Position numbers and translations under genes: made by a program. The notes under the pieces are model-generated. The model did not search any database. It was not told where the DNA came from and saw only the letters and a program-made list of their open reading frames with translations. Source: a virus. From it: a stretch of DNA of 39,013 bases. Below are positions 18,967 to 39,013 of the stretch, piece after piece. How positions within the stretch are numbered: position 1 is the first letter of the stretch; each line of letters begins with the position of its first letter. The stretch covers positions 1 through 39,013 of IMG/VR virus record IMGVR_UViG_3300047560_000910. One strand, given 5' to 3'.

Positions 18967-19578
18967 TTAGAAAAGGCTACTTGTTCGCTTTACTACGATG
19001 TTTGATGCAAAAACCACACGTAGTTCATCAGTCATATTCTGTGTAACATAGTGATCTAAACATGATGGAAATATAACTATCGCGCCATCAAACATTGGAG
19101 GTTGAAACATATTAGGATATTGATCCAATGGATCAAGTTCTAAATATTTTAAATGCTTGGAAAATCTAGGTGTAGGGAATACAAATTGTCCAGCATCTTG
19201 ATTTGGTTGTTTTAGAATAACTGCACAAGAAAATGCTGGACAATTCGTTGTTATATGATCATGTAGATGTTGGAATCCATACTTTGCATGCACATTATAC
19301 CATGTATCAATACTCATTTCCCATGGAAACTGGAAATTAAATGAATTAACATAGTTTCTAATATATGGTTCTAATGTCTCATTCCATTTATCAAAGAATT
19401 CTTTATCTTTAGTCCAACGCTGTGATTCATTCTTTGCAAAATTCTGAAACCCATTTGAACCACCATTAGTGTCATCAATATCTAAACATTTTGGCAAGTA
19501 GTGATTCTGTAATGTTATTAAGTCATCACTCGTCAATTGAGTAATAACCACTGGGTAACCTTCAATCCATAATTGCAT
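18967..19578 (-). CDS. 2OG-Fe(II) oxygenase-like protein
   Basis: 203 residues. The core GFQHLHDHITTNCPAFSCAV supplies the first iron ligands (an H-x-H at 104/106 or 106/108), and FDGAIVIFPSCLDHYV the distal His176. Arg187 in DELRVVFASNIVV is the likely 2-oxoglutarate-binding residue. This double-stranded beta-helix arrangement is that of small phage 2OG-Fe(II) oxygenases. Many act as hydroxylases, but no substrate is known here. Its ATG overlaps the stop of the preceding oxygenase as TAATG. It closes the GT9-carbamoyltransferase cassette. Confidence 0.8.
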   Translation of the reverse strand: MQLWIEGYPVVITQLTSDDLITLQNHYLPKCLDIDDTNGGSNGFQNFAKNESQRWTKDKEFFDKWNETLEPYIRNYVNSFNFQFPWEMSIDTWYNVHAKYGFQHLHDHITTNCPAFSCAVILKQPNQDAGQFVFPTPRFSKHLKYLELDPLDQYPNMFQPPMFDGAIVIFPSCLDHYVTQNMTDELRVVFASNIVVKRTSSLF

Positions 19579-20213
19579 TAATGTTCACCGCGTTCTAATG
19601 TAATATTGAATGATAAACTGATACGATCATCTTCTGTTTTATTTTCATAAACACCGTGATCCATGAAACTTGGCCACATCACAAGACGACCCTGTTCTGG
19701 AGAGAACTCTGCTTCATGCGCTATAGTTGCACCAACTGGATTACACTTCAATGCTTTTAATGCATTACGGAAATAGATGTTACCATCATTACCATTTGTT
19801 TTAAACCAATACACACCACTAATTTGATTAGTGCCATGATCATGGATATGTGCATGTAAACCTGGTTTTGTCAATGTCAACCATGAACTGACGATTGCAG
19901 GTTTGTATCCAGGTTTGGTATTCGTAGCAGACATATAATGCAAGCAGTGATGGAAAATCATTGACACTACTGCTTGCATATTTTCTTGTTCTAATAAATT
20001 CTGTTCGAAATTACCAGCATTTGATAAGAAATGTTCAGAGGAGTTCCATTGTTTATTTTGACCCCATGTATCATTAGCATATAGTTTATCAACTACTGTT
20101 TGCAGTTCTGATTGAACATTGCCATAACTATCACCTTCTAGTTTAGTCGTATAAACAGGAGTTGGGAATAATCCCAAAACCTGTCCTTCATCTGCGCACT
20201 TATGCTCTGTCAT
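19578..20213 (-). CDS. 2OG-Fe(II) oxygenase-like protein
   Basis: 211 residues from the ATG at 20213, preceded by GGTGGAG and overlapping the carbamoyltransferase end by 14 nt. An in-frame codon at 20240 would lie deeper in that gene and is less likely. The N-terminal LGLFPTPVYTTKL is the FPTPV signature of the phage 2OG-Fe(II) family often annotated TIGR02466. PGLHAHIHDHGTNQISGVYW supplies the first ligands (His124/His126), RLVMWPSFMDHGV the distal His186, and Arg197 probably binds 2-oxoglutarate. The substrate is unknown. The cassette context suggests modification of the same molecule handled by the glycosyl- and carbamoyltransferases. Confidence 0.85.
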   Translation of the reverse strand: MTEHKCADEGQVLGLFPTPVYTTKLEGDSYGNVQSELQTVVDKLYANDTWGQNKQWNSSEHFLSNAGNFEQNLLEQENMQAVVSMIFHHCLHYMSATNTKPGYKPAIVSSWLTLTKPGLHAHIHDHGTNQISGVYWFKTNGNDGNIYFRNALKALKCNPVGATIAHEAEFSPEQGRLVMWPSFMDHGVYENKTEDDRISLSFNITLERGEH

Positions 20214-22011
20214 TGTGTTTAATCTCCACCATGATTTCAACAGCAGGGAAATAAATGTAATTAATCCCTGAATTATATAGAGTTCTCATAGCGTCATCAA
20301 TAGTTTCAACTAGTGGTTCACCACCAAGGTTGAATGATGTATTAAATAATGCTGGAATACCTGTTTGATTTTTAAATTCTTTGATTAAGTTATACCAATG
20401 GAAGTTTTCTTCTGGCGTAACTGTTTGAATACGACATGTGCCATCAACGTGAATAACTGCTGGAATTTTTTCCTGTACACCAGGTTGGCAATTCACTGCA
20501 TACATCATTGATGGAGAATCTTTCATACCACGTAAGTCAAACCATTCATGAACATCTTCTGCTAATACTGATGCAGCAAATGGACGGAAGTATTCACGCT
20601 TCTTAATCAAGTTAACGAAGTCTTTACCATTTGGATCTGTTGCATCATACATCAATGAACGATTGCCTAATGCGCGTGGACCGTTTTCACAACGTTCTTG
20701 GAATAGAGCAACAATATTTCGATCTCTAATAGTATCAATAACACGTTCATAATTAACATTCTCGTAAACTGTACCACTGTATTTCATTGCAGTTTCAATT
20801 ACTTTCTCGCGAGTAATTTCTTGAACTGGGCCAAGATATAGCGTTTCATTCTTTTGTCTCACTCGATCATCTCCACTAATAGTATAATATGCCAATAACG
20901 CTGCACCGATTGCAGTACCTGCATCATTCGAAATTGGTTCAACAAATAACTTTGTGCCCTCTGGTAATTTATCCAAGTACCAATAGTTAGCAACACAGTT
21001 CAAACCATAACCGCCGCTAATAACGATATTCTTATTACCATTTTTAGCAATAGCTTTTTGGATTAACTTTAAAACCTCTGCTTGTGATTCTGTCTGAATG
21101 TTGTACGCCATATTACGGCGTGAATCTAATAACGTTACATCTTCTGTAAGAGATTCATTATAATAATCATTCAACTCTTTTAATTCTTCTTGTGATGAAT
21201 TCTGATTGTATTTGCGTGATTCTGCTTGTACGTCATATTTACGATCACGAAGTTGTGGATAGTTTGCTTCATCAACGACTGAACCATTTGGATATGTTGG
21301 AATGATAACATCACGACTTACACCAAATTCATTAAAGATTTTTGGAGCTTTATCTGCTTCACCATATGGGAACAATCCCATAGTTTTACCAGCTTCGATC
21401 GGTGCCCAACCACAAAATTGTGTAACTGCTTCATATGCCTTAACGATACCTGGACGATCATTAATCAAAACTTCACAACCATTTGATTCATAATGTTCAG
21501 TTTGCCAAGGACCACGACCGCCAAAGTGTTTATATGTTTCTTTGAATGTTGCAGGATATGATGCTTCATATACTGATTCAACTTCCCACATAGTTTCACC
21601 ATCTTGACGACGAATAAATGTACCAGCTCCATCAACAATGATAACGTTTGCTGAATCAAATCCTGAACGATAGAATGCACATGCAGCATGATTACGGTGA
21701 TGATTATCCCACATCTCGATAACTTGATCATTGCTTTCAATTAAACCTAGTTTTCGTGCAAGTGATGGATATGTATTTTCACCAGTGAAGTCAACACGAC
21801 TTTCATCTGGTTGTGTATGTGAAATGACAAGATAGTCAATTTTATCTGTGTACTCTAGAAGTTTTACAATAGATGCATATGGACCGCCATCATATTTTTT
21901 ACGTGTTAAACGTTCTTCTTCAATAGAGAATATAATTTCACCATCTTTTAATAGACATACACCAGCATTATGTCCACGCGCAATGCCTGCAATATAACCA
22001 GTCTTCTTCAT
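20200..22011 (-). CDS. Carbamoyltransferase, NodU/CmcH/TobZ family, two domains
   Basis: 603 residues. Enzymes of this family make carbamoyl-adenylate from carbamoyl phosphate and ATP, then move the carbamoyl group to a hydroxyl on a sugar or antibiotic. The N-terminal Kae1-like domain (about 1-370) carries HHRNH metal ligands (His104/His108), VDGAG with Asp127, and SNDAGTAIGAALL. The C-terminal YrdC-like domain (about 395-600) has ENGPRALGNRS, KKREYFRPFAASVL, IPAVIHVDGTCRIQTV and NTSFNLGGEP, all expected. It follows a one-domain paralogue with an ATGA overlap and a GGAAATGAA ribosome site. Likely acceptors are sugars of host or phage glycans. Confidence 0.93.
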   Translation of the reverse strand: MKKTGYIAGIARGHNAGVCLLKDGEIIFSIEEERLTRKKYDGGPYASIVKLLEYTDKIDYLVISHTQPDESRVDFTGENTYPSLARKLGLIESNDQVIEMWDNHHRNHAACAFYRSGFDSANVIIVDGAGTFIRRQDGETMWEVESVYEASYPATFKETYKHFGGRGPWQTEHYESNGCEVLINDRPGIVKAYEAVTQFCGWAPIEAGKTMGLFPYGEADKAPKIFNEFGVSRDVIIPTYPNGSVVDEANYPQLRDRKYDVQAESRKYNQNSSQEELKELNDYYNESLTEDVTLLDSRRNMAYNIQTESQAEVLKLIQKAIAKNGNKNIVISGGYGLNCVANYWYLDKLPEGTKLFVEPISNDAGTAIGAALLAYYTISGDDRVRQKNETLYLGPVQEITREKVIETAMKYSGTVYENVNYERVIDTIRDRNIVALFQERCENGPRALGNRSLMYDATDPNGKDFVNLIKKREYFRPFAASVLAEDVHEWFDLRGMKDSPSMMYAVNCQPGVQEKIPAVIHVDGTCRIQTVTPEENFHWYNLIKEFKNQTGIPALFNTSFNLGGEPLVETIDDAMRTLYNSGINYIYFPAVEIMVEIKHNDRA

Positions 22012-23075
22012 TTCATTTCCTTTGTATAACGATATGTCAATAATGCTGCACCAATAGAAGTTCCAGCATCGCTTGAATTGGGCTCAACATAGAGATTAAT
22101 TCCAAGCTCGTTCAATTTTTCTTTGTAGTAATAATTTGCAACACAATTTAATGCATAACCACCAGTCAAACAAACATTCTTATTGCCTGACATTTCACTT
22201 GCTTTAATAATCAACTTCAAAACTTCTTGTTGTGTTTCTTGTTGAATCTTATATGCAATATCTTCAGCAGATATATCATTTATATGTTTAAATTTTGCAA
22301 CATTAATATGGCTTGCAGCTTTAAATGTTGGTGTAATTAATGCAGTATTTACGTAAGACCATTCTCCATCATGAAGGAAAAAATTTGGAATGTGCGCATT
22401 TGGTTTTCCATATGCTGATAATCCCATAGTTTTTCCGCATTCTAATAAAGAAAAACCAAGATAATCTGTAACAGCATCATATGCTCTACCAATTCCAGCA
22501 GAAAAATCAACTATAGTTTCACAACCATTAACTATTCTTCTATCAGGTAATACTTGTACATTTTGTGCACCATATCTTTTATATATTGCACTATAATTAT
22601 CAACGTCTACAAAGTTATATATTGATTCGATTTCATATGCTCTTATAGGTTCTTTATGATCATCTAAGATATTTAATTTTATATCACTACCAGCACCATC
22701 AACTACCACAACTGCAGCAGATTCAAATCCTGAATTGTGAAATGCACATACTGCATGTGTTAAGTGATGTCTATTTGTATAATTCAAATATTGATCATTA
22801 GAACTTACTAAACCAAGTTTGCGTGCGAAACCACTATATACGTGCTCGCGTGTATATTCTAATAGCGGTCTATCTTCCGCAGGATATGCGATCGCAATAT
22901 AATCGACTTTATCAGTATAATCTAAAACTTTTAATAGACCAAGAAGGGGTGCTCCATCTGCCTTTGATCTAGATAATCGTTCTTCTTCAACAGAAAAAAC
23001 AATTTCACCATCGTTTAAAAGGCATATTGACGCATTATGACCCAACGCTAGACCAATAATATAACCAGTTTTCAT
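22008..23075 (-). CDS. One-domain carbamoyltransferase paralogue (Kae1-like half only)
   Basis: 355 residues, aligned from end to end with the first part of the next gene. It starts KTGYIIGLALGHNASICLLN, has HHLTH (His103/His107), VVVDGAGS with Asp126, and SSDAGTSIGAALL near its end, so the transfer-domain metal ligands are intact. It stops at YRYTKEMK, before any YrdC-like domain. The stop is shared with the start of the full-length paralogue (ATGA), with no leftover C-terminal sequence, so this is a clean one-domain gene and not a frameshifted copy. It may use carbamoyl-adenylate made by its neighbour, form a mixed complex with it, or have a different acceptor. Confidence 0.88.
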   Translation of the reverse strand: MKTGYIIGLALGHNASICLLNDGEIVFSVEEERLSRSKADGAPLLGLLKVLDYTDKVDYIAIAYPAEDRPLLEYTREHVYSGFARKLGLVSSNDQYLNYTNRHHLTHAVCAFHNSGFESAAVVVVDGAGSDIKLNILDDHKEPIRAYEIESIYNFVDVDNYSAIYKRYGAQNVQVLPDRRIVNGCETIVDFSAGIGRAYDAVTDYLGFSLLECGKTMGLSAYGKPNAHIPNFFLHDGEWSYVNTALITPTFKAASHINVAKFKHINDISAEDIAYKIQQETQQEVLKLIIKASEMSGNKNVCLTGGYALNCVANYYYKEKLNELGINLYVEPNSSDAGTSIGAALLTYRYTKEMK

Positions 23076-23077
23076 GT

Positions 23078-24073
23078 TTATTTAGGTGTGCAGCAAGATG
23101 ATTGTTGTTGTGATGGAGTTTCTGGCATTTTAAACTGTTTAAAGTTATTTTTGCCCAAAGTACTTTCAATTGCTTTAACTATATCATTAATAGTTGCATT
23201 AGAAAGTTTCATGAGATTCTCATTATTTCTGTCTGCTAACATATCAAACGAAATACGAATTGGAGAATATACTCGTTCATCTTTACCATTATCAACAATA
23301 TTAAATTTCTTATTTTCTGGATAAGAAATATTTTCTGGAAATGTTCCGCCAATAACGACAGTGCTTGGTTTGCCAATTGAATTTGCCATATGTTGGCCAA
23401 CAGAATCACAACCTAAGAAGTAATCTGCTTCAGCAATCAATGCGGCCCATTGCAATAAGTTTAAACCTTCAGGTGTCATAACACCAAGTGGTTCTTCTGA
23501 CGCAATCTTAATATCTGACATCACAATTACACCATAATTTTCATTAAGTTTCTTAATAATTTTCTTGATGTCATCTACTTCAAAAGATCGACCGCTAGTG
23601 TCAACAATATATGAACCATCTACTTTTGCTCCTGAACCAAATGGTTGGAATACAACAACTTTATCTCGTTGTAAGTGACGTTTACATTCATTAACAAGAT
23701 TTTTGGCGACGACTACGTCAGCTTTGCCAAGTTCAAAGTTGAATTTTTTAGTTTGTGGGATTTCGAGCGAAGATGCGTCTTGATTGATAAGTATATCAAA
23801 CGCTTGGATTAAATTTACTTTCTGATTGAAGTAAGCATTTAATCTATAAGGCTCTGGTGTGACTAGTTCACGATCTTTAACAATGTCAAACAATCCATTA
23901 TGTTGGACGCTATACACATTATTTCTAATGATTTTACTAGTTAAGAAGAGTTCCATCCATCCTTCTGCAATAATTGGTGCAGTTGGATCAATGTTCTGAA
24001 TGTGGTATTCTAAAGCGGGAATGGCGCAGAGTACACGACCTGCGCCACCATTAATAAAAAACGCTTTTTTCAT
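23078..24073 (-). CDS. Glycosyltransferase family 9-like (heptosyltransferase-type)
   Basis: 331 residues. The C-terminal half looks like GT9/ADP-heptose transferases: VVVFQPFGSGAKVDGSYIVD at the start of the nucleotide-sugar domain, LLQWAALIAEADYFLGCDSV followed by GQHMANSIGKPSTVVIGGTF, where the Asp-Ser and following helix bind the nucleotide sugar. The N-terminus KKAFFINGGAGRVLCAIPAL matches the GT9 GGIGD-x-x-x-x-P loop. The last residues, SQQQSSCCTPK, are unusual. It is the first gene of a cassette with two carbamoyltransferases and two oxygenases. AAGGAATATT-ATG is the ribosome site. Donor and acceptor are unknown. Confidence 0.78.
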   Translation of the reverse strand: MKKAFFINGGAGRVLCAIPALEYHIQNIDPTAPIIAEGWMELFLTSKIIRNNVYSVQHNGLFDIVKDRELVTPEPYRLNAYFNQKVNLIQAFDILINQDASSLEIPQTKKFNFELGKADVVVAKNLVNECKRHLQRDKVVVFQPFGSGAKVDGSYIVDTSGRSFEVDDIKKIIKKLNENYGVIVMSDIKIASEEPLGVMTPEGLNLLQWAALIAEADYFLGCDSVGQHMANSIGKPSTVVIGGTFPENISYPENKKFNIVDNGKDERVYSPIRISFDMLADRNNENLMKLSNATINDIVKAIESTLGKNNFKQFKMPETPSQQQSSCCTPK

Positions 24074-24868: not shown

Positions 24869-25696
24869 TTAACTATAAGTTACTTTAACTAAACCGCCAG
24901 CGCCAAAGCTGCCCCAACATGCATCAGTTGCATCAGTTGCATGACCTGCACCGCCACCACCTGGGAACGCAGCATGTGCTGTACAACATGCCAAATTACC
25001 AACGCAACGATGTTTACCAGTGATACCGTGAGCTGCAGTAAATGGACCAGAAGGAGCGCCTGCTGTTGAGAATGCATGAGCACAGCAATCATATTGTCTA
25101 GTGAATCCACCAGTAGTGCCTCTAAATTCTACATCACCACCATAGGTTGGACTATCACATGCATGAGTTACCCAACCTGCATTATAATTACCTCTACTGC
25201 ATTGAGTATTACCAATATGGCAATTGTAACAGTTAGATGATATATCCCAATGTGTTGAACCACCCATACCGCCAATCGCGCAGAAATTGCTTAAACCAGA
25301 TCCTGTGACAAATGATGTACAGCCATGTCTACAATTTGCATTACATGAACAACAGCATGAACAATCAGATGTGCCAGCAGCACAAATTGTATATTGACAT
25401 CCAGGAACAAAGTGACCAGCAGAACGACGCAATGTTTTCATTGTATAGTTTCCACCTTGACCACCAACACCATGATCATAGTCACCACCTGATGATCCAC
25501 CAGGACCACCACCGCTTAAAAGTTCGAATACAATTGTAGTTGTTCCAGCTGGAACTGTCCATAAACAACATGATCCACCATTAGTTGGTGTCCAGTGATT
25601 ACCATTATATACGTAGAATTCATTTTTCTGAACGTTTTTATAATGTCTTGTCCCATCAGGGAATACAATCGAATCGTCGTCTAATATAATCGCCAT
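24869..25696 (-). CDS. Cys/Gly-rich virion protein, paralogue 3 of 3
   Basis: 275 residues, about 21 Cys and many Gly. It opens with ILDDDSIVFPDGTRHYKNV, followed by CCLWTVPAGTTTIVFELLSG and the GGGPGGSSGGDYD loop. The middle holds DCSCCCSCNANCRHGCTSFV; the end is FPGGGGAGHATDATDACWGS and GGLVKVTYS. The N-terminal sequence looks like the start of fibre-associated proteins and the rest like glycine-rich receptor-tip proteins. It shares nearly all Cys positions with its two neighbours. Disulfide bonding outside the cell, metal binding or enzymatic crosslinking are possible. A tail-tip or adhesin role is inferred from position. Confidence 0.72.
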   Translation of the reverse strand: MAIILDDDSIVFPDGTRHYKNVQKNEFYVYNGNHWTPTNGGSCCLWTVPAGTTTIVFELLSGGGPGGSSGGDYDHGVGGQGGNYTMKTLRRSAGHFVPGCQYTICAAGTSDCSCCCSCNANCRHGCTSFVTGSGLSNFCAIGGMGGSTHWDISSNCYNCHIGNTQCSRGNYNAGWVTHACDSPTYGGDVEFRGTTGGFTRQYDCCAHAFSTAGAPSGPFTAAHGITGKHRCVGNLACCTAHAAFPGGGGAGHATDATDACWGSFGAGGLVKVTYS

Positions 25697-25712
25697 ATTT
25701 TTTTACCTATTC

Positions 25713-25720
25713 TATTTATT
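25713..25720 (-). promoter_or_regulatory. Near-consensus late promoter (weak candidate)
   Basis: AATAAATA on the minus strand, one mismatch from the T4 late box, 16 nt before the start of the third Cys-rich gene and overlapping the stop of the second. It could give extra expression of that copy, but one AT-rich octamer in an AT-rich genome is weak evidence. Confidence 0.25.
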
Positions 25721-26546
25721 AGCTATACGATACTTTAACTAGACCACCAGCACCAAAACCACCCCAACACGCATTTGATGAACCTGTGCCATGACCATAA
25801 CCGCCACCACCTGGGAATGCAGAATGACCTGAGCAACACGCTAAATCACCTACACACCAGTGTTTACCGCTAATACCATGACTAGCTGAGAACGGTCCAG
25901 AAGGAGAACCAGGAATAGTAGCAAAGTCAGCACAACAGTTATACTGCTTAAACATTGAACCCATAGTGCCACGGAATTCAATATCACCACCATAAGTTGG
26001 CGTATTGCATGTACAGTTACCCCATTGACCGTTAAAAATACCTAGGTTACATTGACCATTACCAATATGACAGTTATAACAACTGTCCATAATTTCCCAA
26101 CCGGTATAACCGCCTTGACCACCCATTGCACAGAAGTTTGATAAACCAGAACCCGTTACAAATGACGTACAACCATGTCGTGTAGTACAGTTACATACAC
26201 AGCAACATGAACAGTCTGATGTACCAGCTGCACAAATTGTATATTGACAACCTGCAACGAAATCACCTGCAGATTTTCTAAGAGTTTTTACTGTATAATG
26301 ACCACCTTGACCACCAACGCCGTAGTCGTAGTCACCACCTGATGATCCACCAGGGCCGCCGCCCGATAAAATTTCAAATTTAATTGATGTTGTTCCAGCT
26401 GGAACTGTCCACAAACAGCATTTGCCTCCATTTAATGGAGACCAATGATCGCTATTATAAACAAAGAAATGATTTCGTTCAACAGTTTTGTACTGTCTTG
26501 TCCCATCAGGGAATAGGATCGAATCGTCGTCTAATTGAATTGCCAT
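25719..26546 (-). CDS. Cys/Gly-rich virion protein, paralogue 2 of 3
   Basis: 275 residues with about 22 Cys. The order of motifs is the same as in the other two copies: KCCLWTVPAGTTSIKFEILS, GGGPGGSSGGDYDYG, DCSCCCVCNCTTRHGCTSFV, SNFCAMGGQGG, and a closing HSAFPGGGGYGHG. It differs mostly in the surface-like stretch between about 150 and 200 (DSCYNCHIGNGQCNLGIFNG, then a unique CTC pair). This uneven divergence fits variation in an exposed, possibly ligand-binding region. GGAAAAAAT-ATG precedes it. The function is unknown. Confidence 0.72.
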   Translation of the reverse strand: MAIQLDDDSILFPDGTRQYKTVERNHFFVYNSDHWSPLNGGKCCLWTVPAGTTSIKFEILSGGGPGGSSGGDYDYGVGGQGGHYTVKTLRKSAGDFVAGCQYTICAAGTSDCSCCCVCNCTTRHGCTSFVTGSGLSNFCAMGGQGGYTGWEIMDSCYNCHIGNGQCNLGIFNGQWGNCTCNTPTYGGDIEFRGTMGSMFKQYNCCADFATIPGSPSGPFSASHGISGKHWCVGDLACCSGHSAFPGGGGYGHGTGSSNACWGGFGAGGLVKVSYS

Positions 26547-26557
26547 ATTTTTTCCTA

Positions 26558-27388
26558 TTAACTATAAGTTACTCTAACTAGACCACCAGCACCAAAACCA
26601 CCCCAACATGCATTAGTTGATGCGGTACCGTTAGCACCGCCACCGCCACCTGGAAAGGCTGCATGATGTGAACAACAACCCATATTACCAACACACATGT
26701 GTTTACCGCTAATACCATGCCATGCAGCAAACGGACCAGAAGGAGAACCAGCAGTTCCATGAATATCAGCACAGCAGTCTGGTTGTGTTCGTCTCATACC
26801 ACCTGATGTACCACGGAATTCAATATCACCACCATATGTTGGTGAATTACATACATGATTTACCCAACCAGCATTATAGTTACCAACTGAACATTGCGTA
26901 TTACCTAAAAAGCAATTATAACAACTGCTCATAATATCCCAAGATGTTGAACCACCCATACCACCAATTGCACAGAAGTTTGATAATCCTGGACCAGTGA
27001 CAAATGATGTACAACCATGTCGACAGTTCATGTTACATGAACAACAGCATGAGCAGTCTGATGTGCCAGCAGCACAAATTGTATATTGTGAACCATCTAC
27101 AAAACCAGCAACGTTGCGCGTGATAGTCTTAACAGTATAATTTCCGCCTTGACCACCAGTACCAACGTCATAGTCACCGCCTGATGATCCACCAGGACCA
27201 CCACCGGATAATAATTCAAATTTGATAGATGTTGTACCATTTGGAACTGTCCACAAACAGCATTTACCGCCGTTCAGTGGATCCCAAATATTACTATTCC
27301 AAACGTAAAATTCTTTTTCTTCTACGTTTGTATATTGTACTGAACCATCAGTATGAGTGATGGTTGTATTTCCTAAAATAATAGCCAT
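26558..27388 (-). CDS. Cys/Gly-rich virion protein, paralogue 1 of 3
   Basis: 276 residues with about 21 Cys. It directly follows the large S74 fibre gene (3-nt gap) and has the best ribosome site of the three (AGGAGAATAATCA-ATG). The N-terminus ILGNTTITHTDGSVQYTNVE has diverged from the DDDSI-FPDGTR version of the other two copies. The Cys-rich centre DCSCCCSCNMNCRHGCTSFV and the Gly-rich end FPGGGGGANGTASTNACWGG are kept. Adjacency to the fibre suggests a receptor-binding tip or adhesin; no direct evidence for this is visible. Confidence 0.72.
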   Translation of the reverse strand: MAIILGNTTITHTDGSVQYTNVEEKEFYVWNSNIWDPLNGGKCCLWTVPNGTTSIKFELLSGGGPGGSSGGDYDVGTGGQGGNYTVKTITRNVAGFVDGSQYTICAAGTSDCSCCCSCNMNCRHGCTSFVTGPGLSNFCAIGGMGGSTSWDIMSSCYNCFLGNTQCSVGNYNAGWVNHVCNSPTYGGDIEFRGTSGGMRRTQPDCCADIHGTAGSPSGPFAAWHGISGKHMCVGNMGCCSHHAAFPGGGGGANGTASTNACWGGFGAGGLVRVTYS

Positions 27389-32462: not shown

Positions 32463-33848
32463 TTAATATGTACCGCAGTCGATATGACCGAATGTTGGCA
32501 ATCCTGATGCGCTCATTTGTAGAACTTGACCGGTAATATCGCCACCGTTATAAATGCTTGTATCATCACCTGTGATGAAACTTGCATCACCGTTAACATC
32601 AATCCATGGCACTGAATTTGCAGTGAATGAAGAGAATGATAACTCTGTTAATAATGCATTGCCGAAACGAACATCTGATGCTGTACCAGAGAATGTGTCG
32701 TTTGTATTAGTTGCATCTTCAATGAATGTGAAACGATTTGCAGATGAATCATAACCGAAGAAACCCGATTTTGCTGCAGAACCATTATGCCATCTAAATT
32801 CTAAACCTTTATCTAATCCATCTGGTGCTAACAATAGCGTTTCATCGCCATTGGCATCTGATTGCATACCCAAAATCAATGTTGGGTTATTAGATTGAAC
32901 TGACGCAGAGTTAACTGTAGTAGTTGTACCCTTAATTGTCAAGTTACCTTCAATAACAACAGAACCGGTATTTTGTGCGCCAGTTGATGGATCCAAATAC
33001 ATGATGTCAGTACCAAATGTACTAACTTTGTTATTTTTGATTTGTAAACCGATTGGTGTGGCTGCAGTCAAATCTGTTGAGAATTTTGATGAGCCATCAT
33101 TATCAACACGTAAACGTTCTAAACCATCTGTGAACATACGCAATTGATTGTTGTTTGCACCAGGAGAATTTTCTGGAGAAACGTATGTGTTACCATCAAT
33201 ATCTTGTAGACGTGAACCGATCGCGTTCCAAGCAATACCATCATAACCTTCGAACACATTTGATGTTGTGTTGAAGCGGAACATACCAGCAAGTGGAGAT
33301 GCATCACGTGTTGCGGTATTACCTACTGGAACACGAATAGCATTTTGACCAGAGAACTGAACATAACCTGTTCCAGTTGGAACAATAAAGATCTTACCAT
33401 CAGTACGTGATGATGAAACAGTGTCAACGTTAATAACTGACAAGTCAATATCTGAATCGATCTTAACTTTACCAGTACCGTTTGCTGCTAGATGCAAGTC
33501 ACCGTTTGTTTCAGTGATCGATAATGTATTACCGTCTAAGCGTAAAGCATCAACGTTTAATACGTTGACTTTTGAATTACTGTCAGTGATAATCGCAGAG
33601 TTTGGATGTAAGACACCATTTTCATGGTCCAACATATCCATGAAGTACTTACCACCGATATGTACAATATCAGTAGCTTCACCAGCAATTTCAGTACCTG
33701 TACCAATATATAAACGATCACCACCAGTAGATGATACTACGCCTTCGATTGGAAGTTGTTGTAGGTATGAGTAAGCTAATTCACCAGTAGCAAGGGTTGA
33801 CGGTGAGCCGCTTAGCCCGGAATTTTTAATTTTAATGATCGTTGCCAT
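32463..33848 (-). CDS. Tail-fibre-like structural protein
   Basis: 461 residues. The start IIKIKNSGLSGSPSTLATGE followed by LAYSYLQQLP resembles the N-terminal SG..P..L..GELA.N motif of fibre proteins in T4-like marine phages. After it comes a beta-rich shaft with paired segments (DALRLDGNTLSITETNGDLH, VIEGNLTIKGTTTTVNSASV), and a C-terminal region ending GQVLQMSASGLPTFGHID. No S74 domain is present. It has TNPTLILG-type loops typical of fibre domains. It is preceded by two small proteins of the same late operon. Confidence 0.78.
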   Translation of the reverse strand: MATIIKIKNSGLSGSPSTLATGELAYSYLQQLPIEGVVSSTGGDRLYIGTGTEIAGEATDIVHIGGKYFMDMLDHENGVLHPNSAIITDSNSKVNVLNVDALRLDGNTLSITETNGDLHLAANGTGKVKIDSDIDLSVINVDTVSSSRTDGKIFIVPTGTGYVQFSGQNAIRVPVGNTATRDASPLAGMFRFNTTSNVFEGYDGIAWNAIGSRLQDIDGNTYVSPENSPGANNNQLRMFTDGLERLRVDNDGSSKFSTDLTAATPIGLQIKNNKVSTFGTDIMYLDPSTGAQNTGSVVIEGNLTIKGTTTTVNSASVQSNNPTLILGMQSDANGDETLLLAPDGLDKGLEFRWHNGSAAKSGFFGYDSSANRFTFIEDATNTNDTFSGTASDVRFGNALLTELSFSSFTANSVPWIDVNGDASFITGDDTSIYNGGDITGQVLQMSASGLPTFGHIDCGTY

Positions 33849-33851
33849 GGT

Positions 33852-34079
33852 TTAGTACTTTCCTCCGATGATTTTCGTCTTGGCTCTTGGATGATCGATC
33901 GTGGCCGTTAATTTGAATTTTTGTGTTTCACTGTCATAAATCATCATGGCACCGTCTTCTAATTCGGTTGCGTCAATATCATTTAGGTCTAATAGGTTTA
34001 GAGACGTAATACCAAGTGCGAATGTACGCACTGTTACTGGGGTATCTAGTCTAATTTTGGATCTAATTGCTGTAGACAT
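33852..34079 (-). CDS. Small fibre/baseplate-type protein
   Basis: 75 residues. The core, LNLLDLNDIDATELEDGAMM followed by IYDSETQKFKL, is the LSDLxDVDxTxLxDGxVLxYxSxTxKW-type motif that recurs in phage tail proteins. The N-terminus TAIRSKIRLDTPVTVRTFAL is of unknown type. The start overlaps the upstream stop as TAATG. Length and context point to a structural connector. Confidence 0.6.
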   Translation of the reverse strand: MSTAIRSKIRLDTPVTVRTFALGITSLNLLDLNDIDATELEDGAMMIYDSETQKFKLTATIDHPRAKTKIIGGKY

Positions 34080-34417
34080 TATGCACCTCTAGTTGCACGT
34101 GGGGTTACAGTTATCTGTCCTTCAACAACTCGAATGACAGTGCCTAATGTAGCATGAACAATTTCAATATCATATACATAACGACCATCGCGCATTGCTG
34201 CAGTTTGTGAGTTTGTGAGTGTTAATTTAACTTCGCCGCGGTTAGTTGTTTTAGTACAACCGATTTGAACCGAAGTGATTGAAGTGTACGACTTTCTAAT
34301 TTGACCGCGCACGTTATATGGTGTCAAATCAATTGGTGTACCAATAGAATCTTCGACGTCAAGCGTGGCTACAAAGTCTGAGCCTTGATCGACAACTAAG
34401 TTAACTAATTGAGACAT
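34079..34417 (-). CDS. Virion protein with BppU-like beta domain
   Basis: 112 residues. VVDQGSDFVATLDVEDSIGT, then PIDLTPYNVRGQIRKSYTS and AAMRDGRYVYDIEIV and EGQITVTPRATR form the pattern of a small Ig-like domain also found at the N-terminus of baseplate upper proteins (BppU) and in other tail-fibre adaptors. It is the first virion gene after the radical SAM cassette and has its own exact late promoter. An adaptor between baseplate and fibre is likely but not shown. Confidence 0.65.
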   Translation of the reverse strand: MSQLVNLVVDQGSDFVATLDVEDSIGTPIDLTPYNVRGQIRKSYTSITSVQIGCTKTTNRGEVKLTLTNSQTAAMRDGRYVYDIEIVHATLGTVIRVVEGQITVTPRATRGA

Positions 34418-34483: not shown

Positions 34484-35059
34484 TCAGGAATGAGTATGTA
34501 GGAATAAATCTACTGGCAAAGCTAGTCTAATATTATGCTGATATGTAGAAACATAATGATATAGGAAACTTGGGAATACAATAATATCACCAGTTTGTGG
34601 AACAAAGGATAGATTTTCGAACCATGGCATAAAGGATTCATCATATCCTCGGTTAGAATTCTGTCTAGGATCTGTGAAAGTAATATTTCCACCAGATTTT
34701 TGGTTTTCACACATTAAATAAAACACTGCAGAAATTTGTGCACCTCTATGATTATGGTGACCAATACTGTAATTGTTATTATTTGTGCCAGCAATCCAAC
34801 CCTTCATTTTATGGCTTTTCCAGTCACTAATATTCCTATTCAAGGATTCTGAAAGGAATGAATTAAACGCAGGATATATTACATTTTCCTTAAATTTATT
34901 AATGTGTTCATCTGGATTTTCTAGTACATTAATCTTTCCAAAGTCACTTGGAAACTTGTTCATATCATAATTAAATAGTAATGTGTTTGCCATCTCTTCA
35001 GCAATAGTAGTATCAATACTAGTTCTATAAACTGGAGTTGCCCAAAGGTTATGCATCAT
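34484..35059 (-). CDS. 2OG-Fe(II) oxygenase-like protein
   Basis: 191 residues. The N-terminal LWATPVYRTSI is the (L/F)xTPVY signature of the phage oxygenase family also seen at 19578. YSIGHHNHRGAQISAVFYLM gives the first ligand pair as H-x-H (His102/His104), not the usual H-x-D; the distal His168 is in IIVFPSFLYHYV and Arg178 likely binds 2-oxoglutarate. The ATG overlaps the preceding stop as ATGA with AGGAG upstream. It ends the radical SAM cassette. The substrate is unknown. Confidence 0.82.
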   Translation of the reverse strand: MMHNLWATPVYRTSIDTTIAEEMANTLLFNYDMNKFPSDFGKINVLENPDEHINKFKENVIYPAFNSFLSESLNRNISDWKSHKMKGWIAGTNNNNYSIGHHNHRGAQISAVFYLMCENQKSGGNITFTDPRQNSNRGYDESFMPWFENLSFVPQTGDIIVFPSFLYHYVSTYQHNIRLALPVDLFLHTHS

Positions 35060-35568
35060 GATATTCTCCTAAGCATCAAGTTCAAGGTGACTCTACTTGA
35101 TTCACCATAATATGTTTCAACACTATGCCAAACATTAGCAGGGAATATAATAAATTGTCCAGCTTTAAATGGTACTACAAAAGTATTGCTATTTTTGTTT
35201 TTAGTATCTGACATCCATTGAGGATTTTTCCAAGATGGATCATATAATTTAATATCACCACCGTTATCCTCATCACCAAATAACTGAAGTACACCAACTA
35301 GTTGATTTCCATAATGGCTATCACAGTGTAATTCGAAATTATTATGACCTTTAGATGTTAATGTTCTAATCCATCCATCGCATATTTCATATTCTGCCAG
35401 GTAATAACGATTCACATATTCTAATAACATTCTTTTATCATTATCATCTAAGACATCTTCGTAATCTTTAGATTGGACATCTACATGTTGAGAATAAATC
35501 TTTGTGCATAGATCTAATGGAACATCAACATTAACTACGCGCGTTGGCCACAAATCATATAACTTCAT
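35056..35568 (-). CDS. 2OG-Fe(II) oxygenase-like protein
   Basis: 170 residues. It has a standard H-x-D...H...R set: ELHCDSHYGNQLVGVLQLFG (His81/Asp83), GQFIIFPANVWHSVE (His148) and SRVTLNLMLRR (Arg159). GGDIKLYDP is the strand between them. The N-terminus LYDLWPTRVVNVDV carries the WPTRV variant of the family's FPTPV motif. It overlaps both neighbours by ATGA, so the three genes after the second SPASM protein are probably translated together. Hydroxylation of a protein or small-molecule substrate is the family expectation. Confidence 0.84.
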   Translation of the reverse strand: MKLYDLWPTRVVNVDVPLDLCTKIYSQHVDVQSKDYEDVLDDNDKRMLLEYVNRYYLAEYEICDGWIRTLTSKGHNNFELHCDSHYGNQLVGVLQLFGDEDNGGDIKLYDPSWKNPQWMSDTKNKNSNTFVVPFKAGQFIIFPANVWHSVETYYGESSRVTLNLMLRRIS

Positions 35569-35969
35569 ATCATAAATTCTTCTTTAAAATAACCATACAC
35601 ATCTGGTACCATGCCAGATGATTCATCAAATTCCCAACCACCAATAGTATTTAATATCTGATGATATGATAATGGATCAGTGCTGTATTGTACAAAATAT
35701 GGATCATTACCGTATAATAAATTTGGATCTTCTAAATATTCTAGTGGACGACCACCAAATTCTTTAGCAAGCCATCGTGCATAACATATTGCAACCATAT
35801 ATGATTTAGCAGGATAAATCCAACCAATATCTCGCTTAGTAAAATATTCCACAGCATGTAAAACTATATCATTCGATATAACAATATCTTTATCATGCAA
35901 GTCATCATCATGAACAGGATTTAATTTGTGATAAATTTCCTGTCGTATTTTCCAATCATTATTTTTCAT
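35565..35969 (-). CDS. Unknown protein within the radical SAM/oxygenase cassette
   Basis: 134 residues from the ATG at 35969, preceded by AGG 5 nt before it; an in-frame TTG at 35984 is a less likely start. The protein is mixed alpha/beta with several His and Asp near the front (LNPVHDDDLHDKDIVISND), a helix YMVAICYARWLAKEFGGRPL, and a C-terminus rich in Gly, Pro and aromatics. I do not recognise a family. It has no Cys cluster. Because it is coupled by ATGA to an oxygenase and follows a radical SAM gene, it may be a partner, a recognition protein or a substrate for them. Confidence 0.6.
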   Translation of the reverse strand: MKNNDWKIRQEIYHKLNPVHDDDLHDKDIVISNDIVLHAVEYFTKRDIGWIYPAKSYMVAICYARWLAKEFGGRPLEYLEDPNLLYGNDPYFVQYSTDPLSYHQILNTIGGWEFDESSGMVPDVYGYFKEEFMI

Positions 35970-36010
35970 TGGGCCTATGTACAACGGTGTATTAAAGTGT
36001 TAAAATAGAT

Positions 36011-36928
36011 CTACCCCCAGGGGCCAGTAGTATACCATTTAATTAATTTACTAAAGCCATTGCAGGATTCATCTACAGATTTTACATCTCTTAGATGTTC
36101 AGATAAACAGTTTCCATAATATTCGCATGCATTACAGAATTTATTATTAGAGACTCTATCATGTTCAATATCACACCATTTTAAGTATTCATCAAACGTA
36201 TCATACTCTTTAAAGAATTCATTGTCATTCAAGTCAAATTCCAAAACACCATATTTTCCATTAGGAGTTATATAAACGTGATCATTTGAAAAACTGTTTC
36301 TAGTCTTATTTAGTACAGATTCCAGAAGCGCTTCATTTACGAATTCAAAATTCTTATTAGGATGTTCTATCCACCTCTTCACAAAATCCTCATACATCGT
36401 ATATGGAATATTGAATTGGTTTGCTTGATTAGTGCTATATGGTTTTATTTCAACAGAGATTAAGTTATTCAAGACATTAAGCGTATTAACCATGTCATCA
36501 ACATCTTTTCCTATTAAATCTGGACCTGCTAAAATCAATACAGAAAACTCTTTATTTAATAATGCCATATTACGCCACACACGTTGATGTTGTTCTCTAG
36601 CATTAAAATCATAACTAACTGAAGTGTGAACTCTAGGATCTGTTGTAATTTCATTAACCATGGAAAGGTTTGTGATGATATTAATATTTTTAATTCCATA
36701 GAGACGAAGCATATCAATCATATCATTCCAATAATCCAATGGAAGTAAACCAACTTCACCACCATAAATGTCAACCATATCGATTGTGCATTCAGAAGAA
36801 ATTTCAGATAACATTTCCTCCAAACGATTTAATGGCAATAATGTCTTGTCAGATAGTTGTTCTGGTGTAAGATAGCAAAATTCACAATGGAAGTTACAAT
36901 AGTACCATGGGTTAATTGATAAAATCAT
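36011..36928 (-). CDS. Radical SAM protein with short SPASM-like C-terminus
   Basis: 305 residues. The N-terminal CNFHCEFC (Cys11, 15, 18) is the CX3CX2C motif that binds the SAM-cleaving 4Fe-4S cluster, and DIYGGEVGLLP the GGE motif. The barrel continues with NINIITNLSM and ends near residue 170. The C-terminal part has FCNACEYYGNC (Cys265, 268, 274) and Cys252/Cys289, a SPASM-type auxiliary cluster arrangement but with fewer Cys than the neighbour at 37439. Such enzymes usually act on peptides. The last residues are TTGPWG. It overlaps the upstream oxygenase stop as ATGA. Confidence 0.85.
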   Translation of the reverse strand: MILSINPWYYCNFHCEFCYLTPEQLSDKTLLPLNRLEEMLSEISSECTIDMVDIYGGEVGLLPLDYWNDMIDMLRLYGIKNINIITNLSMVNEITTDPRVHTSVSYDFNAREQHQRVWRNMALLNKEFSVLILAGPDLIGKDVDDMVNTLNVLNNLISVEIKPYSTNQANQFNIPYTMYEDFVKRWIEHPNKNFEFVNEALLESVLNKTRNSFSNDHVYITPNGKYGVLEFDLNDNEFFKEYDTFDEYLKWCDIEHDRVSNNKFCNACEYYGNCLSEHLRDVKSVDESCNGFSKLIKWYTTGPWG

Positions 36929-37458
36929 CCTACTAATATCTCATTAATGTTATAATTGAATAGAGCAACTCGTCTATCCATTGGCAATTTCAGTTCTGTC
37001 ACAATATGTTCGAATCTTAATCCATGGTTCATAAATGATACATCATATTTCTGTGGATAAAATTCACCCGTTAATTCTTTTGTTTGTGCATCTCTAAATC
37101 GTGTCATTCCACCAATATCTTCATCCATCGAATCCAAATAAAGGAGCACACATATGTTATAACCTTCTACATTATCATTATGCCATGACAACGTTGCATC
37201 ATCCATACCATTTACAATTTCACAATCATTACCAATTCTATAAGATGAATCTAATGAATGCAAGTACTTATTTGCAATCAAGTGTTGTGTATTTTTAATT
37301 GCATATTCTATTGCAGGATTACGTTTAATTAATTGTAAACCTTGACCCTTCCAATTTTTCCATTCCCATGAATCAATATCATTTAGATATCGAAACATTT
37401 CTGGATCGTTTATTTTGTGAAAGCCATTATTAAAAAAATTATCGTGCAGCGTTTGCAT
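36925..37458 (-). CDS. Probable 2OG-Fe(II) oxygenase-like protein
   Basis: 177 residues. LSWHNDNVEGYNICVLLYLD supplies H-x-D (His93/Asp95); GGMTRF is the usual strand after it; the distal His is probably His151 in GLRFEHIVTE (or His145 in MNHG), with Arg162/163 as the 2-oxoglutarate contact. This pattern resembles prolyl-hydroxylase-type 2OG enzymes more than the FPTPV group in this window. It sits between two radical SAM/SPASM genes, overlapping them by 20 and 4 nt. AAGGATATTATAG-ATG is its ribosome site. Confidence 0.72.
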   Translation of the reverse strand: MQTLHDNFFNNGFHKINDPEMFRYLNDIDSWEWKNWKGQGLQLIKRNPAIEYAIKNTQHLIANKYLHSLDSSYRIGNDCEIVNGMDDATLSWHNDNVEGYNICVLLYLDSMDEDIGGMTRFRDAQTKELTGEFYPQKYDVSFMNHGLRFEHIVTELKLPMDRRVALFNYNINEILVG

Positions 37459-38473
37459 CTATAATATCCTTCGATAGCAATTTCATCTTTTTACAATGAA
37501 CTTCTGTTAAACCGTAATCTTTATGATCTTTAATTGTTTTCCTGCAACCATTGCAGATTTCAAACATTGGACATGTATAACAATCATCAGTCATAGTCTG
37601 TAATTCCATAACATGCTTAATTGGAAAAATCTTTGTACCTGACATTTCAGATTTAAAATCTATTGGATATAATCTGTCATCACCAAATGCACCACATGAA
37701 TAGTAGTCTCCACTTGGTTGGAGTGTCCTAATACCAGAATCACAGTCACGATTTTGTGGACAACACGTAGATTGACCACGTAATCTTTTCATCATCTGTT
37801 TGGTATTAAATTCCCAATGGTGTAACTTACGTTTCCAAATATCAACATAGATTTCATAGATGTCTGCAAGAAGATATGGTTGACCTTCTTGACCCATGAT
37901 AATACCTTTGAATTTTGTAGGAGGACCAGAAGACATGGCATAATTTAACTTGCATTCCACATCCATGCGCATAGCAAGTTGAACATTTTTATATGCTAGG
38001 TGTTCATTTTCTTTTGTAATAACAGAGATAAATCCTGGACGATATCCACAATGCTCTAACATTGCATCAGATACTTTCCAAAAATCTTCCTCAGTAAACT
38101 CGCTCAAGTCTCCTTTGAGTCTACCTCCACCATATTGAAATGATGTTGTGACACCTACTCGTCTATTATTAAATAGGTCTTTCCACTTCTCAGGATTTTT
38201 ATAAAATGGCCAAAGATTGCTTGTGATACTTATTGTTGTATTCTCATAATCATTTGCATCTAACCATTCAATGATTTTCCAATAGTAATCTACTGGCATC
38301 ATTAATGGATCGCCACCATTTACAATAATGGTTCTAGTTTCTGGGAATCTTTTTAGAAAATCAAACACGTACTGTAAATCCAGTTCTGCAGACTTATCAT
38401 CAGTGATATGTGTGCTAGAACAGAATGTGCATTTGAAATTACACTTCTCAGTAGGTTTAATTATCAAGTCCAT
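37439..38473 (-). CDS. Radical SAM protein with SPASM domain
   Basis: 344 residues. CNFKCTFC (Cys11, 15, 18) is the SAM-cluster motif and VNGGDPLMMP the GGD/GGE motif. The C-terminal domain carries nine Cys: STCCPQNRDC (237, 238, 244), YYSCGAFG (260), then DDCYTCPMFEICNGC (298, 301, 307, 310) and Cys327. The CX2CX5CX2C...C layout is the SPASM signature that holds auxiliary 4Fe-4S clusters in peptide-modifying enzymes. The ATG lies inside the end of the preceding radical SAM gene. The substrate is unknown, and it has no recognised RiPP leader-binding (RRE) domain. Confidence 0.9.
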   Translation of the reverse strand: MDLIIKPTEKCNFKCTFCSSTHITDDKSAELDLQYVFDFLKRFPETRTIIVNGGDPLMMPVDYYWKIIEWLDANDYENTTISITSNLWPFYKNPEKWKDLFNNRRVGVTTSFQYGGGRLKGDLSEFTEEDFWKVSDAMLEHCGYRPGFISVITKENEHLAYKNVQLAMRMDVECKLNYAMSSGPPTKFKGIIMGQEGQPYLLADIYEIYVDIWKRKLHHWEFNTKQMMKRLRGQSTCCPQNRDCDSGIRTLQPSGDYYSCGAFGDDRLYPIDFKSEMSGTKIFPIKHVMELQTMTDDCYTCPMFEICNGCRKTIKDHKDYGLTEVHCKKMKLLSKDIIDANAAR

Positions 38474-39013
38474 CTAAATACCTTTGAACCCAATCTTCAA
38501 TACGTAAACCATCATATAATAAAAAGTCTTCATCTAATCTTTCACCTAACACAATCTTGTCAATTTCTCGTTTGATGTTTTTAAACCAATCAAATTCTTG
38601 GATTTCTTGATATCGTTTACGCAGTTCAATGCTAGGCAATTGACCATCTTTTACAGTAGGACCAAATGCACGTTGGGCATAATTCATGAAGAACATTTCT
38701 TTCCATTCTTCAGATGTAAAACTATACGATTCAATTACAAATTCTTGTGGAGATTTATATTTAGTTAATACACAATCTGACACATAACAAATATCATTAT
38801 CATCATTTTCAGTAATCCCAGCTTTTGTAGTTTTGATTTTATGCAATCGTTGATATAATGTATTTGCAAGTTCTGTTGCTGGTAATACAGACAATGGACC
38901 ACGACTCCAGTCCCAAAACTTTGTATGAAGAACTAAATCCATTTCAGCATAAAATGTATCTATAGTCGAACCAGGTAATCCTAAAATCAATTCTAGTTTA
39001 CCATGTTTATTAT
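38457..39013 (-). CDS. C-terminal part of a radical SAM protein, possibly B12-dependent type
   Basis: The reading frame is open to the window edge, so the true start is upstream. An in-frame TTG at 38990 is not a believable start, because the conserved motif begins before it. NKHGKLELILGLPGSTIDTF matches the ELILGLPGET strand-loop near the end of the radical SAM barrel in B12-binding-type enzymes, and GPLSVLPATELANTLYQRL the following LxVLPGTEL segment. The Fe-S cluster Cys residues and any B12 domain lie outside the window. It leads the cassette and overlaps the SPASM gene by 17 nt. Confidence 0.72.
   Translation of the reverse strand, partial: NKHGKLELILGLPGSTIDTFYAEMDLVLHTKFWDWSRGPLSVLPATELANTLYQRLHKIKTTKAGITENDDNDICYVSDCVLTKYKSPQEFVIESYSFTSEEWKEMFFMNYAQRAFGPTVKDGQLPSIELRKRYQEIQEFDWFKNIKREIDKIVLGERLDEDFLLYDGLRIEDWVQRYLDGLDN

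Follow-up and report, generated by a model that had tools for sequence, protein, structure and literature searches.

What do the radical SAM enzymes of a phage act on when their genes sit among those of the tail? The question is raised by a viral contig of 39,013 nucleotides (the whole stretch analyzed, called the window below), in which such enzymes and 2OG-Fe(II) oxygenases are encoded directly before the tail-fiber genes. The 332-Vera paper, in the text available, describes eight radical SAM genes inside a structural cluster and calls them highly unusual. The available parts of the reports on FLC6, S13 (SURPRISE13), RP12/RP31 and 332-Vera hold radical SAM annotations only and put forward neither a substrate nor a tail motif nor a function; the papers found list such genes, and none, in those parts, proposes that radical SAM enzymes mature a virion protein's tail. 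The jumbo phages FLC6 and S13 carry the same cassette as the relatives of the window, and RP12/RP31 and 332-Vera are likened to it only through the available published descriptions, not by sequence. Our comparison of sequences suggests that the tip of an attachment fiber is chemically remodeled in many phages and in some predatory bacteria.

A cassette cut by the contig end

Seven cassette ORFs were located on the − strand (34484–39013), exactly where a first-pass annotation had placed them (Table 1). That annotation had joined all seven by overlaps into one operon before the tail-fiber genes; the ORFs, their strand and their place held, and the junctions in transcription order are −17, −20, −4, +26, −4 and −4 bp, so that one of them is a gap. 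Another gap, of 66 bp, separates the last cassette ORF from the LtfC-like gene F9, which also matches phrog_3304 (E 1.8e-22) and, below cut-off, PF23926 (E 0.005). The F7 gene further downstream is syntenic with its counterparts in loci L002, L006 and L013. By family consensus, F1 probably starts at the ATG at 35969; it is present in 75 loci, shares its 7 phage records with rSAM3, and has no convincing PDB relative.

Table 1. Cassette ORFs of the window and the genes that follow them.
Feature	Coordinates	Strand	Evidence and remarks
B12-type (KedN5-like) radical SAM, family F13, C-terminal 184 aa	38457..39011	−	5′ part beyond contig end
rSAM3, SPASM radical SAM enzyme	37439..38473	−	PF04055 E 4.6e-9; phrog_1802 E 1.2e-58; CNFKCTFC and SPASM cysteines
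2OG-Fe(II) oxygenase, family F4	36925..37458	−	PF13640 E 1.5e-5, just under curated cut-off
rSAM4, twitch-like radical SAM enzyme	36011..36928	−	PF04055 E 4.8e-5; phrog_1802 E 1.8e-37; Cys pattern
F1, unknown cassette protein (phrog_20737)	35565..35984	−	phrog_20737 E 1.6e-53
2OG-Fe(II) oxygenase, family F2	35056..35568	−	PF13759 E 8.3e-8; HCD and distal His
2OG-Fe(II) oxygenase, family F2, HxH replacing HxD	34484..35059	−	PF13759 E 2.9e-11; HNH
F9, LtfC-like / L-shaped tail-fiber assembly homologue; first structural gene after cassette	34079..34417	−	phrog_1084 E 5e-27
F14, small conserved protein, between LtfC-like gene and fiber gene	33852..34079	−	phrog_13853 E 1.4e-25; 24 loci
Family F7 tail-fiber-type protein, downstream of cassette	32463..33848	−	F7 cluster, 65 loci

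Whether such a cassette always travels with the same neighbors was a question raised by the first-pass annotation. Across 80 related IMG/VR loci and 4 isolate phages, gene order was conserved, with fiber or other structural genes adjoining. The cassette is also carried by jumbo phages of Agrobacterium, Sinorhizobium, Burkholderia and Pseudomonas and by the chromosomes of some Bdellovibrionota. In relatives it runs several kb past the point where the window's contig stops: the 5′ half consists of F6 (cupin/JmjC-like), rSAM1, F5, the two unknown proteins F3 and F8, and rSAM2, with a B12-type radical SAM gene added in a subset, and the genes present in the window follow as the 3′ half, in the order rSAM3, 2OG, rSAM4, F1, 2OG, 2OG. 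Judged by this order, the window holds only the 3′ half of a larger conserved cassette, the rest of which falls beyond the contig end. The position of F5 lies past that end, which explains its absence from the window, and synteny with relatives predicts it in this virus; a search for a near-identical contig running past 39013 found none. A fiber gene directly precedes the cassette in T4-likes, Atu_ph07, Phosso and the short-form lineage, and its C-terminal domain is common to these groups; elsewhere the cassette starts after another structural gene. Neither the Burkholderia/Pseudomonas jumbo lineages nor Bdellovibrionota yielded this shared domain.

Enzymes of the cassette

The CxxxCxxC motif is intact in rSAM3, rSAM4 and all sampled orthologues except one truncated ORF call. 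Two SPASM enzymes had been proposed, and this is borne out for rSAM3, in which both auxiliary Fe-S cysteine motifs were found by inspection and pattern (TIGR04085, the SPASM domain model, narrowly misses its cut-off of 27 with 23.8 bits) and whose orthologues form one clade across the loci treed. In rSAM4 the first auxiliary-cluster motif is absent and only the second is present; it is therefore twitch-like rather than a full SPASM enzyme. SPASM-type cysteines, which are typical of peptide and protein maturases, occur in rSAM1–3, and the best NCBIfam relatives of rSAM1 and rSAM3 are the peptide maturases PapB and DynA (rSAM3 to DynA, E 2.8e-15, far below the DynA cut-off).

The ORF at the contig end, already read as the C-terminal fragment of a radical SAM protein, is 69% identical to residues 313–487 of the 499-aa F13 protein of L002. 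That full-length protein matches Radical_SAM (E 1.2e-11), more weakly and below cut-off a B12-binding domain (E 9.5e-4), and locally NF033712, the KedN5-type C-methyltransferases (E 1.9e-37); the window's fragment lacks the N-terminus, where the B12-binding domain would sit. The annotation of three 2OG-Fe(II) oxygenase-like proteins agrees with PF13640 or PF13759 matches for all three. Metal ligands are well kept in these families: HxD...H...R in 97 of 98 F4 members, the ligands plus Arg in 106 of 110 F2 members if HxH is allowed (most have HxH), and HxD/E...H in all 63 F6 members.

F5 is a likely substrate

In relatives, the gene adjoining rSAM1, the first of the radical SAM genes, encodes F5, a protein of ~190 aa with a variable body and the invariant C-terminus CHxSCHxSCHxSRGRR. 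Among 90 aligned sequences, C174, H175, C178, H179, C182, H183, R186, R188 and R189 are invariant, and the tail is the only strongly conserved part (mean top-residue frequency 0.87 vs. 0.46 in the body). In the structure model (pLDDT 88, pTM 0.81), the body is confidently folded and the tail has low confidence. F5 matches no NCBIfam model, and no solved relatives were found for F5, F3 or F8; kinship of the F5 body with the YGYGQ family, seen in L091, was rejected at an hhalign probability of 5%. Tandem copies of the F5 precursor occur in 22 loci. When tail residues were compared with the accessory enzymes F13, F15, F17 and F18, none of 40 Fisher tests survived correction (best p 0.005). On conservation and position, F5 is likely the substrate of the cassette.

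As a reciprocal test, viral contigs were scanned at the DNA level by the F5 motif only, blind to the enzymes. The scan returned 120 loci, 115 with the motif in frame near a C-terminus, and in 109 of these 115 radical SAM genes lay within the fetched DNA, the nearest at a median of 3 bp from the motif. Three to six radical SAM genes are constantly near the motif. Four of the five remaining loci resemble chance DNA matches; the fifth, L178, has radical SAM genes and F3, and an in-frame motif was not recovered there. In all 12 whole records tested, including 4 complete jumbo genomes, the motif occurs exactly once. Locus L022 had seemed to lack F5, which proved to be a matter of where the fetched DNA ended, the motif lying ~1 kb further out in the whole record. 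Matches in Frankia, Pseudoalteromonas and Bordetella genomes had neither an in-frame motif nor a cassette and look like chance.

Link to virions and to predatory bacteria

In the Agrobacterium phage Atu_ph07, F5 is gp170. The MS-defined virion clusters of this phage, in the part of the paper available, include CDS 170–215, ending at the major capsid protein gp215 (PMC6102473), and the cluster boundary at CDS 170 indicates that F5 is very probably present in Atu_ph07 virions. Its C-terminal tryptic peptide, NMWYQSANVTASIGVDFCHSSCHASCHNSR, has a computed monoisotopic mass of 3311.375 with free thiols; the corresponding values for the unmodified form in SURPRISE13 and DT01 are 2413.021 and 2510.158.

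Chromosomal cassettes of Bdellovibrionota adjoin Peptidase_S74 proteins, two of three being fused to N_methyl prepilin signals. The MAT fiber adhesins of Bdellovibrio are likewise phage-like fiber proteins with S74 chaperone domains, but they bear signal peptides, whereas the protein beside the cassette is a fusion of S74 with a prepilin-type signal; radical SAM enzymes go unmentioned in the MAT paper (PMC10769870).

Comparison with known maturation systems

The RiPP clusters of PapB, DynA and HxsABCD resemble the cassette in that a ribosomally made protein with a Cys/His/Ser-rich repeat is encoded near SPASM enzymes, and the H-x-S pattern of the HxsA concept recurs in the F5 tail. In contrast to those clusters, F5 has a large folded body, the cassette is viral and fiber-linked, and its scores all fall far below the family cut-offs; HxsB (27.4 bits vs. 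a curated 370) and HxsC (28.5 vs. 267.9) place it outside the His-Xaa-Ser (Hxs) system. Among the cassette families scanned, no family matched a PqqD-like RiPP recognition element and no protease, exporter or transporter gene was found, host and distant phage genes lying outside that scan. F3 was considered as a recognition element, which its AF2 model does not support: the model is confident, yet has no PDB match.

Polytheonamide-type proteusin clusters combine B12-type and SPASM radical SAM enzymes with 2OG oxygenases. The first-pass annotation had drawn this parallel, and the same three types do adjoin in loci with F13; these are only 24 of 64, and no proteusin-type leader or secretion genes were seen. 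QhpD performs SPASM chemistry on a protein that is kept whole as a structural part, as F5 would be on our proposal; its substrate is, however, a bacterial enzyme subunit, and the likeness is one of concept, not sequence.

What the cassette may do

We think it probable that the cassette is a radical-SAM/oxygenase system for maturing the F5 tail, with F5 a virion protein at or near the fiber tip; the chemistry is what we infer. During infection, the radical SAM enzymes would act on the three Cys-His-x-Ser units, most likely forming Cys-centered thioethers or other crosslinks between side chains; hydroxylation of tail residues would fall to the oxygenases. Modified F5 would then be incorporated in the virion at or near the fiber or baseplate tip, where its rigid, possibly metal-binding tail could contact or penetrate the host envelope. 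The Bdellovibrionota cassette, located beside the prepilin-S74 fiber fusion, may arm a surface fiber. Metal binding at the tip and enzymatic modification could both hold together.

The RiPP-like cassette first proposed, perhaps acting on a virion protein of the phage itself, thus gains a candidate substrate with a conserved tail, while strict RiPP membership is not supported: relatives do have a conserved core region beside maturases, and among the cassette families scanned no recognition element, leader protease or exporter was found. We consider it unlikely that F5 is a strict RiPP precursor whose modified CHxS tail is cleaved and released free, for instance against bacteria or competing phages. 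The core-like C-terminal repeat, the several maturases and the tandem precursor copies do recall RiPP clusters, but the cassette families scanned include no peptidase, transporter or known recognition element, the modeled F5 body is large and folded rather than a short leader, and F5 bounds a virion cluster of Atu_ph07. A shade less probable is another target, such as a fiber protein, the window's Cys-rich glycine-rich adhesins or a host protein, with F5 as partner or carrier, for example in metal or Fe-S delivery. The three Cys and three His of F5 are potential metal ligands, and Cys-rich Gly_rich_2 proteins do occur in the window; these, however, lie outside the conserved neighborhood, while each whole record tested has a single F5 motif, found with the cassette, and F5 is very probably a virion protein in Atu_ph07.

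Phage radical SAM and 2OG genes are frequently called auxiliary metabolic genes (PMC7150976), a label that would suit synthesis of a small molecule or modification of nucleotides, sugars or lipids; the making of ddhNTP, as by viperin, would be one such case. Weak viperin matches exist, but they cover mainly the N-terminal SAM-binding core and score 31.7 bits against a cut-off of 180, on which a viperin-like function was rejected; PADLOC viperin matches are mostly to the same radical SAM core. With SPASM-type cysteines in rSAM1–3 and a linked invariant-tail protein that has no role in such a pathway, we regard this reading as very improbable. Hardly any weight falls on the idea that the motif is solely a structural metal-binding tip, with the enzymes acting elsewhere. 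Known phage spike tips do bind iron via HxH motifs, the metal being coordinated by His at the spike apex, and the CHxx repeats could plausibly serve as ligands, but metal binding alone leaves the constant company of radical SAM genes unexplained.

Implications

Maturation of the F5 tail would give the radical SAM genes that stand out as odd in several jumbo phages a specific candidate substrate, with a target at the level of residues; if true, F5 would be the first virion protein known to be matured by radical SAM enzymes. Atu_ph07, SURPRISE13, DT01 and Phosso are cultured and have laboratory hosts, which makes the proposal directly testable. More tentatively, several unrelated phage lineages and some predatory bacteria may have in common a radical chemistry by which a Cys-His-x-Ser tail on a surface or virion protein becomes a crosslinked, hydroxylated tip that attacks Gram-negative envelopes. 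If this is right, virions bear post-translational modifications of a kind so far described in RiPP antibiotics and in a handful of enzymes, and Bdellovibrio-like bacteria, which likewise enter Gram-negative cells, would have the same device.

A putative maturation cassette precedes the tail-fibre genes

The first-pass annotation had described an operon of radical SAM and 2OG-Fe(II) oxygenase genes directly before the tail-fibre genes. This observation was confirmed in the window: the gene set and position held, and only the assignment of the 305-aa enzyme as a SPASM protein had to be revised, as it carries just the second auxiliary-cluster motif and is thus twitch-like. The majority of the gene junctions overlap, by 4–20 bp. 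Past a 66-bp gap, the last oxygenase is followed by an LtfC-like (L-shaped-fibre-assembly) homologue, then by a small conserved protein, and then by a tail-fibre gene. The source record, a virus contig of 39 kb, breaks off within the first of the operon genes listed here.

Cassette genes and other enzyme and structural genes in the window
Feature	Position	Strand	Order (39013 to 34484)	Remark
Radical SAM protein, C-terminal 184 aa		−	first	contig stops inside gene
SPASM radical SAM enzyme (rSAM3), 344 aa	37439–38473	−	second	
2OG-Fe(II) oxygenase, 177 aa		−	third	
Radical SAM enzyme (rSAM4), 305 aa	36011–36928	−	fourth	twitch-like
Protein of unknown function (F1), 139 aa	35565–35984	−	fifth	
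Two more 2OG-Fe(II) oxygenases		−	sixth and seventh, ending 34484	
Second enzyme block	18967–24073			between tail genes
Two further PF13759 2OG oxygenases	within 18967–24073			
Full carbamoyltransferase	within 18967–24073			N and C domains
Carbamoyltransferase N-domain protein	within 18967–24073			
Glycosyltransferase-9-like protein	within 18967–24073			
Three tandem Gly_rich_2 paralogues	24869–27388			glycine- and cysteine-rich; adjoin fibre genes
Fibre, 1111 aa	27392–30727			three CBM5/12 carbohydrate-binding modules; C-terminal Peptidase_S74 chaperone
Ferritin/Dps-like protein	16863–17291			amid baseplate and tail genes

The cassette recurs in a fixed order in related phages

Among annotated phage records, the 344-aa enzyme gave seven tblastn matches representing six distinct phages (Agrobacterium Atu_ph07, with two records; Burkholderia FLC6, FLC8 and SURPRISE13; Sinorhizobium Phosso; Pseudomonas pPa_SNUABM_DT01), and F1 was present in the same seven records. 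Scanning IMG/VR with this enzyme yielded 165 stretches encoding a relative, from which 80 loci were kept. When every ORF of these loci was clustered, a repeated order emerged: a structural gene, F6 (cupin/JmjC-like), rSAM1, F5, F3, F8, rSAM2, sometimes F13 (a B12-type radical SAM enzyme), then rSAM3, an oxygenase, rSAM4, F1 and oxygenases. The last cassette oxygenases are followed, in T4-likes, by the LtfC-like gene and by fibre genes. ORF boundaries are approximate because a simple greedy script was used, which misassigned some ORFs in GC-rich genomes (L083, L084, L085); the gene content of these loci was confirmed from annotated records.

The cassette radical SAM enzymes group into four clades of orthologues, with F18 as a fifth. 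The 64 loci with enough downstream sequence hold 3–6 radical SAM genes each (mean 4.1), together with F3 (63/64), F6 (57/64), F8 (56/64), F1 (56/64) and F13 (24/64). The papers on FLC6, S13 and RP12/RP31 name genes for radical SAM, cupin or 2OG proteins and, in the passages covered, give no function for them. The 332-Vera paper calls its many radical SAM genes, eight within a structural cluster, highly unusual.

F5 is the likely substrate

The F5 gene lies immediately 3′ of rSAM1 and encodes a strongly variable body with the C-terminus CHx[S/N]CHx[S/N]CHx[S/N]RGRR. In a 90-sequence alignment, only tail columns were invariant, namely those of the three Cys-His pairs and of three arginines (mean top-residue frequency 0.87 in the tail vs 0.46 in the body). 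Exactly three units occur in 172 of 173 distinct sequences and four in one; 156 of the 173 end in RGRR. An F5 variant with four CHxN units lies at 8105–8878 of L117, a viral contig whose cassette has seven radical SAM genes. The AlphaFold2 model has a confident body (pLDDT 88, pTM 0.81) and a low-confidence tail. Foldseek found no match in the PDB; its significant viral matches comprised the protein from Atu_ph07, two that are unnamed or uncharacterised, and proteins from a single further phage assembly. Neither the F5 tail nor a substrate is described in the open-access literature searched, whose coverage stops short of preprints and most subscription papers.

We scanned the viral collection with a degenerate DNA pattern of the tail, blind to the enzymes, and obtained at least 120 loci. 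Among the matches listed, the motif was in frame near an ORF C-terminus in 115 of 120 loci, and 109 of these 115 had radical SAM genes in the fetched DNA (motif-to-gene distance: median 3 bp, maximum 2392 bp); the other six were mostly short or reached the edge of the fetched stretch. Two in-frame copies occurred in 22 of the loci listed, mainly as a short form of ~126 aa adjoining fibre genes. In this short-form lineage (L086, L110, L119, L153, L160, L164 and others), tandem F5 copies lie directly 3′ of giant fibre genes, accompanied mainly by F18-type enzymes. Twelve of 12 whole records scanned, four of them complete jumbo genomes, held the motif exactly once; the window lacks it because the contig ends before the F5 position. 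F5 is the likely substrate of the cassette enzymes. The Gly_rich_2 paralogues of the window are possible alternative targets of the oxygenases.

The cassette occurs sporadically in genomes assigned to predatory bacteria

Scanning bacteria and archaea with the tail pattern plus stop gave 19 stretches: in 16, an F5-type ORF accompanied the in-frame motif, almost always alongside other cassette genes, and three were apparent chance matches. Several genuine bacterial matches were Bdellovibrionota MAGs. By inspection of long contigs from three genomes (L234/L240, L235/L241, L236), the cassette lies amid ordinary chromosomal genes; the placement appears chromosomal, with some residual probability of MAG binning error. 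The exact motif occurred in 8 of 291 sampled Bdellovibrionota genomes, all eight already found by the earlier scan, so the cassette is sporadic in this group. In the three genomes, a Pfam Peptidase_S74 protein adjoins the cassette, with an N_methyl prepilin signal above cut-off in two of three; Bdellovibrio bacteriovorus recognises prey via phage-like S74 fibres, in a paper that does not mention radical SAM (PMC10769870). The L234/L240, L235 and L236 cassettes also lie near a ~200-aa protein whose last residues are GRHWVKVK or similar, and near small proteins that have twin-arginine-like N-termini.

Probable virion location and proposed mechanism

In Atu_ph07, F5 is FDI40_gp170. The genome paper reports three clusters that encode most of the virion proteins detected by ESI-MS/MS; CDS 170–215 is one of them (PMC6102473), and this numbering agrees with the record (gp215, major head protein; gp181, baseplate wedge subunit). 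Because this MS-defined cluster is bounded by gp170, F5 was, most simply, detected in virions, on strong but indirect evidence. The downstream cassette genes (gp165–169) fall outside the cluster; rSAM1 (gp171) and F6 (gp172) fall inside it by number alone. Upstream of the cassette, the fibre genes of T4-likes, Atu_ph07, Phosso and the short-form lineage have a C-terminal domain in common; the copy in the L002 locus is weakly similar to Peptidase_G2.

Gene linkage, the invariant F5 tail and intact catalytic motifs are demonstrated for the cassette. The first-pass interpretation, that the phage may modify one of its own virion proteins or a host protein, is supported and sharpened. We infer that rSAM1–4 act on the F5 tail. 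Since rSAM1 is similar to ranthipeptide and dynobactin maturases and rSAM3 to the dynobactin maturase, Cys-centred thioether or other side-chain crosslinks would be the favoured class of bond, and the presence of oxygenases would favour hydroxylation. No protease, exporter or recognised RRE was found among the cassette families scanned, which argues that F5 would stay whole. The cassette is a putative radical SAM protein maturation system, of a new form and in an unusual home; from its neighbourhood and the virion evidence, a role for F5 at the fibre or baseplate tip is predicted.
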